Shown: positions 21,144 to 25,625 of the stretch, piece by piece | How the letters are laid out: every line of letters begins with the position of its first letter | How positions within the stretch are numbered: the first letter of the stretch is position 1 | DNA from: Alphaproteobacteria bacterium | Lineage (GTDB): Bacteria; Pseudomonadota; Alphaproteobacteria; Micavibrionales; CSBR16-224 | Direction of reading: 5' to 3' | NCBI GenBank assembly: GCA_021775895.1 | Contig: JAJFGX010000045.1 | Location: 1 to 47,233 of the forward strand | DNA length: 47,233 nt | Position numbers and translations under genes: made by a program | Notes under the pieces: generated by a model | What the model saw: the letters and a program-made list of their open reading frames with translations, nothing else | Database searches by the model: none | Told to the model about the DNA's origin: nothing

Positions 21144-21241
21144 CCAAGTCCCAACTTCATATCATAATTGCAACCTAACTAATTGATATATAACAGGTGC
21201 TGGGTTATGTAAAATAGATGAGGTGGTTTAAGGGGACTTGG
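21144..21241. other. Long-range inverted repeat between convergent genes
   Basis: CCAAGTCCC (21144-21152) pairs exactly with GGGACTTGG (21233-21241), which is followed by eight T; the 80-base loop has a further AACCCA/TGGGTT pairing option. It could act as a poor terminator for wbpI. The right arm lies in the last codons of the convergent hypothetical gene. Confidence 0.3.
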
Positions 21242-22010
21242 TTTTTTTTAGTTCTTTTATAAATAATTCAGAAATTTCTACAACGGTATTCCAATCTGCT
21301 ATGATTTGTGCGTGAAAAACTACCCGCTTTGATTCTTCTTCAAAAGAATGGGTCATCCACGGTATAAAACTTCCAAGAATTTCAATTTCACCCGAAAGGC
21401 GTTTATATTCATCAAACTGGTAATCTTTTAATGCATTATCTTGCAAAGTTTTTAATTCTTTTTCTTTTTTTTCTTCCTCTTCATTGAAAACATAAGGCGG
21501 TACATACAGCGAAATCCTATGTGCCAATGTATGGCGGAAATCTTCAATATAAGAGAACCATTTTTCATGCTCTTTGGTCTTCAAATATTTTTTCAAATCC
21601 TCAGGAAATGAACCTCGAACACATTTATATTTTTTTCCAAAGCCAATTTGAGAGTTTTCCAAAGGTTGATTTTTCTTATTCCGTACATTGTTTTCTTTAG
21701 CCCATATCCAAGCTAAATTGTCTAACGCCCCACAAATGTTGAAAACAAATGCTTGTAGATTGATTTCAGTATCATCCAATTCTTCTGATGAAAGCTTACG
21801 ATCAATATCTGGAGGGCATATTCTGTAGATGTTATCGATACATCTCTTTAGTGTTTTCATTCGTCTAATAAATCCATGGTAAGCAAATTCAGCTGCTCGC
21901 TCACTCTGAAAACTATATGTGTTAAAACTTAAAAATAAAGACTCACATTTACCCTCTATCTCTTCGTAAGATTGTTTTAGTTCTTGAATGTTTTCTTTAG
22001 AGAAATACAT
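21228..22010 (-). CDS. Conserved hypothetical protein with a HEPN-like RX4H motif
   Basis: 260 aa from the chosen start. All-helical, charged, no signal peptide or membrane segment. The core ALDNLAWIWAKE, then WFSYIEDFRHTLAHRISLY, then IPWMTHSFEE resembles a widespread family of bacterial hypothetical proteins; R159-HTLA-H164 fits the R-x4-6-H active-site motif of HEPN ribonucleases, but this is only a motif match. The frame is open upstream through ATG 22028 to GTG 22049, inside the preceding gene; ATG 22010 begins one base after that gene's stop, suggesting coupled translation. The three starts cannot be ranked firmly. Function unknown. Confidence 0.7.
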   Translation of the reverse strand: MYFSKENIQELKQSYEEIEGKCESLFLSFNTYSFQSERAAEFAYHGFIRRMKTLKRCIDNIYRICPPDIDRKLSSEELDDTEINLQAFVFNICGALDNLAWIWAKENNVRNKKNQPLENSQIGFGKKYKCVRGSFPEDLKKYLKTKEHEKWFSYIEDFRHTLAHRISLYVPPYVFNEEEEKKEKELKTLQDNALKDYQFDEYKRLSGEIEILGSFIPWMTHSFEEESKRVVFHAQIIADWNTVVEISELFIKELKKTKSP

Positions 22011-22011
22011 T

Positions 22012-23562
22012 TTATTCTTTAATCTCATTTGTAGGTTTACTTCTTTCACTGTTAACCATTAACATAGATTTAGAATTACAGCTGGATATAATTTCATATA
22101 AACTATCTAAGTTTAAAGCTATACAGCCCTCCGTTGGGGTTTTATTTGGGTGCATTACATGCATGAAAATTGCACTGCCTTTATTCTTAATTGCAGGACT
22201 ATCATTATAACCAAGCTCAACCACCAAATCATAAAGCTTATCATTTCGCCACATTTTTTCATATGACCCGTCATGCGGTAGCTCAACCAATTTATTATAG
22301 CTTTGACAATTGGCATCATCGCACCAACCAATATTTTTTAAAATTGATTGCATTGGTAGCTTTGTTTTGGGAGTGTTGATTTTATCTGCTCGATAAAAGA
22401 CTCTACGCATTGCCCATTCTCCAGCAGGTGTTGCTCCATCGCCTTCTTTTTTATCTTCTGCAGAAACAATGCCACTGCGACCTAGTAAACAGGGGTATTT
22501 TTTGCCATTAAATGAAATTATGCCTTTTGTTTTATCATCTGCATTAGCAGAGACATAAATATTGTTATCAAGCTCTAAAACTGGGTAGTTGCCAGTTCTG
22601 TCCATTTTATAATTTCGCCATTTGGTAAAGTGTATAGGCTTGTTGTTTTCTAGTGGCTCGCCAAACATTTCCCAATTCCATATATATAATTCAATCATAC
22701 GCAAGCGTATAAAACCATCAATAATATCCAACCATTTTTGGGGTAGCGGATAAACCTCAAGGTAAGATGACAGAAGCTTATCACGAAACTTTTGTTTATA
22801 TTCATCTGATAAATCAAGGCTATTGAGATAGCATAAAGGCACAGCAAGGTCATAGATAAAAAAGTTATAAGCACAACCATCAAAATCAATCAAAGTTAGC
22901 TTGCCATTACTATCCATAAACATGTTGTCGCCATGTGCGTCCATATGGCTTAACCCATATACTTTTTTATCAATGGGTAGGCTATTATACCATTTTATTG
23001 CTTTTTCAAACTCTACTCTAGCATCTTTGGCTTTTGCGGGCAGGATTTTTAAAGCATTTTTAATTTCATTAATATCACGATAATGGAATCGTCTCATCCA
23101 TGGTAGAAATGGTCTATATTTAGCGCTTGTTTTATGTAGATAACCTAAGTAACGTCCTAATTTTTTTGCATTGTTAATGTCATTATATAATTTATCTTTA
23201 CCAATGATATTGCCATGAGCTTTTTCAAACATACAAATTGAATAGCTTGAATTTGCAGTCTTTATTTCCTCTACATCATTGTCGGCACTAGATGGAATAA
23301 CTCCCGCAACTTGCAGGTTATTTTTTGCTAGAAATTGCATGAAAGCCATTTCAGCTCTTACATTATATACTGAACGATGCCTTTCTTCAGTTATACGCAA
23401 TATATATTCAGGATTTGATGGAATACGATAAACAATATTTTCAGACGCACCGATAAATTGTGGTTTTGCAGATATTCCCCATAGAGCAATAGCTGATTCT
23501 GCTAGATCATATAATTCTTCTAAATTACGTTGATTTGCAAATCCTTCCATAACCACTACCAT
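22012..23562 (-). CDS. Fusion of an APH-family small-molecule kinase and an L,D-transpeptidase (YkuD-like) domain
   Basis: 516 aa, one uninterrupted frame. Residues about 20-300 are an aminoglycoside/choline-kinase-type phosphotransferase: catalytic loop HMDAHGDN (H206, D208, N213) and metal-binding LIDFDG (D226, D228). Residues about 330-500 are an L,D-transpeptidase-like domain: LGRSGIV, EGDGATPAGEW, GWCDDANCQSYN, MWRNDKLYDLVVELGYN, and the active-site pattern AIFMHVMHPNKTPTEGC (H468, C480). This C-terminal part resembles short (about 170 aa) stand-alone alphaproteobacterial proteins. No signal peptide is seen. It follows sucD by 15 bases and precedes the HEPN-like gene. ATG 23550 is an alternative start with a slightly better ribosome site. 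Substrates of both halves are unknown. Confidence 0.85.
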   Translation of the reverse strand: MVVVMEGFANQRNLEELYDLAESAIALWGISAKPQFIGASENIVYRIPSNPEYILRITEERHRSVYNVRAEMAFMQFLAKNNLQVAGVIPSSADNDVEEIKTANSSYSICMFEKAHGNIIGKDKLYNDINNAKKLGRYLGYLHKTSAKYRPFLPWMRRFHYRDINEIKNALKILPAKAKDARVEFEKAIKWYNSLPIDKKVYGLSHMDAHGDNMFMDSNGKLTLIDFDGCAYNFFIYDLAVPLCYLNSLDLSDEYKQKFRDKLLSSYLEVYPLPQKWLDIIDGFIRLRMIELYIWNWEMFGEPLENNKPIHFTKWRNYKMDRTGNYPVLELDNNIYVSANADDKTKGIISFNGKKYPCLLGRSGIVSAEDKKEGDGATPAGEWAMRRVFYRADKINTPKTKLPMQSILKNIGWCDDANCQSYNKLVELPHDGSYEKMWRNDKLYDLVVELGYNDSPAIKNKGSAIFMHVMHPNKTPTEGCIALNLDSLYEIISSCNSKSMLMVNSERSKPTNEIKE

Positions 23563-23577
23563 TGGTTTTTATTAGAC

Positions 23578-24453
23578 TTATGCCACCATTGCTTTTTCCA
23601 TCGCATCTCCCAGTCCAGCAGGGCTATCAGATACGATAATACCAACATCACGCATAGCTGCCATTTTACTGGCTGCATCACCTTTGCCACCAGCAATAAT
23701 TGCTCCAGCATGTCCCATACGCTTACCAGCAGGGGCTGTAACGCCTGCAATAAAGCCTGCGACTGGCTTCTTACGAGGGTCATTTTTCAAGAATTCAGCA
23801 GCTTCTTCCTCAGCTGTACCGCCAATTTCTCCAATCATTAGAATGCCTTCTGTCTCATCATCATCAAGGAACATATCAATTGCATCAATGAAATTAGTGC
23901 CATTAACAGGGTCTCCACCAATACCGATACAAGTTGTTTGACCTAAACCATTAGCTGTTGTTTGAGCAACTGCTTCATAGGTTAATGTACCTGATCTGGA
24001 GACAATACCAATTTTTCCACGTTTATGAATATGCCCTGGCATGATACCAATTTTACATTCATCTGGAGTAATAACACCTGGGCAATTAGGCCCTATAAGA
24101 CGAGTGTTTGAACCTTCTAATGCATGGCGTACGCGTACCATATCTAAAACAGGTACACCCTCAGTAATGCATATGATTAATTCGATTCCAGCATCAATTG
24201 CCTCTAGCATTGCGTCTGCGGCGAATGATGGTGGTACATACAAGACACTTGCTGTTGCGCCTGTATCACGTACAGCATCTTGTACTGTATTAAATACTGG
24301 TAGTCCAAGGTGTAATTGCCCACCTTTACCAGGGGTCACTCCACCAACCATTTGTGTGCCGTAAGCAATTGCTTGCTCAGAATGAAATGTGCCTTGAGCT
24401 CCTGTAAAGCCCTGACAAATAACTTTTGTGTTTTTTCCAATAAGTACAGACAT
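23578..24453 (-). CDS. sucD: Succinate-CoA ligase, alpha subunit
   Basis: 291 aa. CoA-binding domain at the N-terminus ([15 protein letters not shown] near 15-30), [18 protein letters not shown] near 123-140, and the phosphohistidine in [10 protein letters not shown] (H248). With SucC it interconverts succinyl-CoA and succinate with nucleotide triphosphate formation in the TCA cycle. Stop of sucC and start of sucD share one base (TAATG), so the subunits are made from one message. Length and motifs are standard. Confidence 0.97.
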
Positions 24454-25625
24454 TATGCAGCATCCTCTCTAACAGCATGAACAACTTTTTGTGCGGCATC
24501 AGCAAGATTATCCGCAGTAATAATATTCAGTCCTGATTTTTGTAATATATTTTTACCTTTTTCAACGTTAGTACCTTCTAGGCGTACAACTAAAGGCATG
24601 GTTAATCCCATCTCACGGGCAGCCACTATTACGCCCTCTGCGATAACATCGCAACGCATAATTCCACCAAAGATATTAACTAAAATACCTTCAACATTAG
24701 GATCAGATAGAATCAGTTTGAATGCCTCAGTAACACGCTCTTTCGTTGCTCCGCCCCCAACATCAAGGAAGTTTGCAGGAGATCCGCCATAAAGCTGGAT
24801 AATATCCATAGTCGCCATAGCAAGACCAGCACCATTGACCATACAACCAATATTACCAGCTAGTTTAACGTAGTTTAATTCGTGCTCTTTAGCTTTTAGC
24901 TCTGTTTCATCTTCTTCTGACTTATCTTGCAGTTTTTCAATAGTTGGGTGACGATATAGAGCATTATCATCAAAGTTCATTTTTGCATCAAGTGGCAAAA
25001 CCTCACCATCTTCAGTCACTACTAATGGATTAATTTCAACAATAGAGGCATCAAATTCTACGAATGTATTATATAATGCTGTGATTAACTTAACAGCTTG
25101 ACCAACTTGTTTTCCTGTTAGACCTAGACCAAAAGCTAATTTGCGACAATGAAATGGTTGAATGCCCATTGCAGGGTCAATCGCAACTTTTTGAATTAGT
25201 TCAGGAGTTTTATCCGCAACTTCTTCAATATCAACCCCACCTTCAGTTGATGCCATGACAGTAATAGATGATGTTGCTCTATCAACTAGCATGCCTAAAT
25301 AAAGTTCACGAGCAATAGCACAGCCAGACTCGATATAAATCCGCATTACTTCTTTACCCTCAGGGCCTGTTTGATGTGTGACTAATTGCATGCCAAGAAT
25401 TTCTTCGGCTGTTGTTTTCACTTCGTCTAAAGATGTGACAACTTTAACGCCACCACCCTTGCCCCTGCCACCAGCATGTATTTGTGCTTTGACCACATAT
25501 ACGCTGGTATTTAAGCCTTTAGCGACTTCAACAGCTTCTTCAACAGTATATGCAACTCCACCGTCTAATACTGGAATTCCTCGAGATTTTAAAATTTCTT
25601 TTGCTTGGTATTCATGGATATTCAT
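24453..25625 (-). CDS. sucC: Succinate-CoA ligase, beta subunit
   Basis: 390 aa. N-terminal ATP-grasp domain beginning [19 protein letters not shown], with the glycine-rich [16 protein letters not shown] near 46-61, and the C-terminal ligase domain with [13 protein letters not shown] and [18 protein letters not shown]. Gives nucleotide specificity and binds succinate. First gene of the minus-strand group sucC-sucD-kinase/LDT-HEPN-like; mdh and sucAB, frequent neighbours in alphaproteobacteria, are not present here. Confidence 0.97.

Follow-up and report, generated by a model that had tools for sequence, protein, structure and literature searches.

A single gene in the window, that is, the whole 47,233-nucleotide stretch of alphaproteobacterial DNA that was analysed, joins an APH-type kinase and a leaderless YkuD domain in one protein of 516 amino acids. 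We consider it probable that this protein is a young fusion of two enzymes, in which the YkuD half works as a cytoplasmic L,D-carboxypeptidase in place of LdcA and the kinase half has a role of its own. The frame lies on the minus strand, starts with ATG, and contains no internal stop; the gene is present in a single copy in its genome. The open reading frame list and the translation thus bear out the uninterrupted 516-codon frame described in an earlier, sequence-only reading, which had also proposed a domain search; in Pfam, both the APH and the YkuD profiles matched above the gathering score. The motifs named in that reading (HMDAHGDN, LIDFDG, H468, and C480) are all present, and the gene is co-directional with sucCD, as had been stated. 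The features are listed below; G001 is a genome of the same genus as the window genome, and G002 and G006 represent genus g2 of the same family.

22012..23562, minus strand: fused gene for an APH-type kinase and a leaderless YkuD domain (open reading frame, translation, Pfam)
22762..23448, minus strand: APH kinase domain, aa 39-267 (Pfam, phmmer, kinase alignment)
22558..22620, minus strand: junction, aa 315-335, from the end of the kinase frame to the YkuD frame (codon comparison with G001)
22042..22572, minus strand: YkuD domain, aa 331-507, LdtGo1-like, putative cytoplasmic L,D-carboxypeptidase (Pfam, pLDDT, fold matches)
22159..22161, minus strand: codon of catalytic His468 (invariant in 81 sequences)
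22123..22125, minus strand: codon of catalytic Cys480, in TEG-C-I-A (invariant in 81 sequences)
23578..24453, minus strand: sucD (open reading frame), 15 nt upstream of the fused gene and the same neighbour in G001, G002, and G006
24453..25625, minus strand: sucC (open reading frame)

On its other side, the 3' part of the fused gene is overlapped by an uncharacterised open reading frame without a family match (21228-22049, minus strand). It had been labelled HEPN-like, a label that is not upheld: the Pfam HEPN_Apea profile matches with an E value of 3.2 only, and NCBIfam and PADLOC gave zero matches.

The kinase half matches APH (PF01636) over aa 39-267 (E 2.5e-17, 63.9 bits against a gathering cut-off of 23.2) and carries the motifs H206-x-D208-x4-N213 and D226-F-D228. 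In particular, H206, D208, N213, D226, and D228 are conserved in an alignment of four homologues, from the window, G001, G004, and G110, the last three carrying the nearest kinases that were found. The best solved matches in phmmer are the amicoumacin kinases 6sui (1.9e-28) and 6sum (1.7e-24), both at low identity; a literature search on the amicoumacin kinase YerI was without result. Judged by its sequence, the kinase half resembles an amicoumacin kinase and may act on a small molecule. The homoserine kinase model (PRK05231 / thrB_alt) gives the kinase half 46 bits against an NCBIfam cut-off of 271, and the genome's own homoserine kinase gene scores 333. Moreover, neither of the AmgK models NF045698 and NF045759 matches the kinase half at E 10, and a separate AmgK-like gene in the same genome matches NF045698 at 1.1e-39, below the cut-off of that model.

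If the kinase half were an antibiotic-inactivating enzyme of the amicoumacin type, its fusion to a housekeeping gene would be a matter of chance. The solved matches and the patchy distribution of the kinase, which is found in 3 of the 142 genomes of the order (close relatives outside the window genome occur there only in G001 and G004), agree with this explanation, but the identity is low, Arg56 stands where amicoumacin kinases have lysine, and the locus offers no resistance context; the explanation is thus possible, if on balance unlikely. Less likely again is a bifunctional recycling enzyme, whose kinase half would phosphorylate a sugar or muropeptide of the same pathway in a reaction coupled with trimming. 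Gene neighbourhood followed by fusion, together with intact catalytic residues in both halves and the example of AmgK, an APH-fold kinase that acts in recycling, would suit such an enzyme; however, the genome has its own AmgK-like gene, the best matches of the kinase half are amicoumacin kinases, and the kinase occurs in only three genomes of the order, compared with 20 for YkuD, and is unlinked to YkuD in one of the three (G004). The version in which one cytoplasmic protein trims D-Ala from imported muropeptides with its YkuD half and phosphorylates the same molecule, or its sugar, with its kinase half is quite doubtful, and no description of such a recycling kinase was found. A pathway common to the two halves is possible, the fusion being the one observation that points to it.

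The YkuD half matches PF03734 over aa 354-490 (E 6.1e-9, 37 bits against a cut-off of 23.4). A search with an alignment of this half retrieved 80 stand-alone relatives, mostly of about 165-200 aa and mostly beginning at the domain, which supports the earlier suggestion that this half is related to short proteins standing alone in Alphaproteobacteria. All of the 81 sequences compared have H468 and C480, and the second position after the cysteine is alanine (A482) in 77 and glycine in 2 of the 81. Many L,D-transpeptidases carry an arginine at that position (PMC10653827); this transpeptidase-type Cys-x-Arg is not found in the YkuD half, which has Cys-x-Ala instead. By eye, no signal peptide is evident in the fused protein, which begins with the kinase; this agrees with the sequence-only reading. 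The same holds for most of the stand-alone relatives, in which YkuD begins at its first strand.

Structure prediction, which had been proposed as a check, succeeded for one half of the protein. The YkuD domain was modelled with pLDDT 92-98 over aa 331-500; the kinase half reached pLDDT 38 when predicted alone and, with too few rows available, scored low in the full model as well. Fold comparison of the YkuD half with VIA-align placed the L,D-carboxypeptidases Csd6 (Z 12.6) and Pgp2 (Z 11.9) ahead of Bacillus subtilis YkuD (11.1) and transpeptidases (about 10-10.5), a small margin of 0.8 to 1.7 Z over YkuD and the transpeptidases. Pgp2 is also the only YkuD-type protein in a profile search of solved sequences, as a weak match (E 0.016). 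When the full model was compared by Foldseek, mycobacterial transpeptidases came out on top, at low TM-scores; VIA-align was used for the YkuD half. A Tyr/Trp pocket for D-Ala and a lysine contact to mDAP have been described for YkuD L,D-carboxypeptidases (PMC10653827).

LdcA (PF02016) is absent from the window genome, and across genomes the two enzymes tend to exclude each other. In tests that count genomes as independent and leave shared ancestry uncorrected, the 142 genomes of the order comprise 1 with both, 19 with YkuD only, 111 with LdcA only, and 11 with neither (Fisher p 5e-15); in the class (385 genomes, ambiguous YkuD matches set aside), the respective counts are 16, 179, 64, and 103 (p 4e-12). 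Six families of the class sample contain both YkuD-only and LdcA-only members. Genomes with YkuD also tend to carry the recycling kinase AmgK (odds ratio 4.9). When only AmgK-bearing genomes are considered, LdcA and YkuD exclude each other more strongly (odds ratio 0.09, p 7e-14); these tests, too, count genomes as independent and leave shared ancestry uncorrected. The window genome itself carries NagZ-like and AmgK-like genes. Mpl was not found in it, which counts against the recycling role as far as the further use of trimmed tripeptides is concerned; the best match to the Mpl model has 200 bits against a cut-off of 389, and we take it to be MurC.

Several genomes merit separate mention. Within the order, YkuD and LdcA occur together in G004 alone, where the kinase, YkuD, and LdcA genes are on separate contigs (loci L039 and L040). 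G032 departs from most of its family (f3): LdcA is present and YkuD gave no match, a pattern that fits an exchange of LdcA and YkuD enzymes. In the class, 44 AmgK-bearing genomes have neither LdcA nor YkuD, which speaks against the proposed replacement of LdcA; it is possible that they possess a third L,D-carboxypeptidase, or none.

Taken together, the exclusion with LdcA, the co-occurrence with AmgK, the narrowly best fold matches to Csd6 and Pgp2, and Cys-x-Ala make a cytoplasmic L,D-carboxypeptidase the most likely identity of the YkuD half. The domain had been regarded in the sequence-only reading as an L,D-transpeptidase working in the cytoplasm, perhaps on a precursor or recycling product phosphorylated by the kinase half. 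The cytoplasmic location and a place in recycling remain plausible, and a substrate common to both halves is conjectural, but Cys-x-Ala and the exclusion with LdcA favour carboxypeptidase over transpeptidase activity. We give little credence to a true L,D-transpeptidase, whether periplasmic or acting on a cytoplasmic acceptor: a Pfam YkuD match with histidine and cysteine in place and Z scores of about 10 for LD-transpeptidases would be expected of one, but Cys-x-Ala replaces Cys-x-Arg, a signal peptide is lacking (by eye) here and in most relatives, LdcA and YkuD exclude each other, and the genome has another YkuD enzyme that probably bears a signal peptide. The latter (L209:1207-2202), with a likely signal peptide and Cys-x-Arg, is probably the periplasmic L,D-transpeptidase of the window genome; by eye, it also has a possible LysM-like stretch.

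The junction between the halves can be followed within one family. In genus g2 (G002 and G006), the gene order is sucC-sucD-YkuD. G001 has a kinase gene interposed between sucD and YkuD. There, the kinase and YkuD genes overlap by 22 nt in different frames, so that the YkuD ATG, preceded by the Shine-Dalgarno (SD)-like sequence AAGGTGG, falls within the 3' end of the kinase gene. In the window, kinase and YkuD are joined as one frame at the very site where G001 has two, and a codon comparison with G001 shows that both AAGGTGG and the YkuD ATG are absent from the aligned site. The kinase adjoins YkuD only in the genus of the window genome, via a presumed insertion into the sucCD-YkuD order; in G004, the kinase and YkuD genes are on separate contigs. 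As the SD-like sequence and the ATG are both missing, the window and G001 differ by more than one base, and such a loss is not what an error in one base at the junction would produce. Codon 320 of the fused frame is an ATG for which no ribosome site is evident, and separate translation of the YkuD half from the fused gene appears unlikely.

The same two-domain order, which the sequence-only reading had proposed to look for in other genomes, was not seen a second time in about 900 genomes. The search covered overlapping samples of 142 genomes of the order, 385 of the class, and 398 of the phylum, as well as 80 named relatives and plasmids. A contig search with the whole fused protein as the query gave zero matches, the plasmid collection contained zero records covering 80% of the fused protein, and viral contigs contained zero relatives of the kinase. 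One longer match (L144, query 204-504) was set aside, its upstream part having no similarity to the kinase. It is improbable that two overlapping genes have been merged artificially by an error of assembly or base calling: the draft assembly (137 contigs), the two frames at the same site in G001, and the lack of a second fused genome would be compatible with an artefact, but the SD-like sequence and ATG of the G001 YkuD gene are absent, more than one base differs, and the remainder of the fused frame is open and conserved.

The fusion thus appears to be a recent merger of neighbouring genes, as judged by the comparison of sequences, and the two overlapping frames of G001 at the same site mark it as lineage-specific; it may be an event of one genome. 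Because YkuD stands alone in other genomes, we infer the order of events to be insertion, overlap, and fusion, and the three gene orders within one family give a stepwise picture of these events. According to the preferred reading of a young fusion with a carboxypeptidase half, a kinase gene would have entered the locus in the genus of the window genome, with sucD on one side and the carboxypeptidase gene on the other; it would have come to overlap the carboxypeptidase gene and then fused to it, so that both halves would now be made together. Cys480, with His468, would attack the mDAP-D-Ala bond of tetrapeptides derived from imported cell-wall fragments; D-Ala would be released, and in peptidoglycan recycling the YkuD half would take the place of LdcA, which the genome lacks. 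The N-terminal half would be a kinase in its own right, of the amicoumacin-kinase type, that uses ATP to phosphorylate a small molecule and is probably independent of this role. The reading offers a testable function for the short leaderless YkuD family, which is present in about half of the sampled Alphaproteobacteria.

Among known systems, LdcA (Peptidase_S66, PF02016) is the usual L,D-carboxypeptidase of the cytoplasm and thus corresponds to the YkuD half in the proposed reaction and compartment. LdcA is a serine peptidase and belongs to a family different from YkuD. Csd6, Pgp2, and Bd1075 are L,D-carboxypeptidases with the YkuD fold; they differ in that they act on the sacculus and cell shape and bear other accessory domains. 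As to the kinase half, the amicoumacin kinase 6sui shares the APH fold over aa 20-294 (E 1.9e-28), a likeness of sequence; 6sui and 6sum have lysine where the fused protein carries Arg56, and the amicoumacin kinase is stand-alone, whereas the kinase half is fused.

LdtGo1 (GOX2269) of Gluconobacter oxydans is a YkuD protein without known activity (PMC10727944, PMC12729407). Like the relatives of the YkuD half, it is a short alphaproteobacterial YkuD protein (171 aa), and Acetobacteraceae relatives of that size were found; the YkuD half probably belongs to the same family, likened through these size-matched relatives, and differs from LdtGo1 in not being stand-alone. In one study, deletion of gox2269 had no effect on the muropeptide profile, and in another the effect was only marginal (PMC10864386, PMC10727944). 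This result for a probable relative lends no positive support to the carboxypeptidase role; it is compatible with it, since sacculi are not necessarily affected by an enzyme that works on recycling in the cytoplasm.

The experimental precedent is ElsL (LdtK) of Acinetobacter baumannii, a YkuD L,D-carboxypeptidase that has no leader and serves recycling in the cytoplasm of a host without LdcA (PMC8649774, PMC9239154). The two are likened by description: both have a leaderless YkuD domain, an LdcA-less genome, and the role proposed here, whereas ElsL is stand-alone and lacks a kinase. Reports of ElsL come chiefly from Gamma- and Betaproteobacteria, with others from Verrucomicrobia. If the proposed role is true, cell-wall recycling in many Alphaproteobacteria without LdcA would proceed via a YkuD enzyme, and the case of ElsL would be extended to another class.
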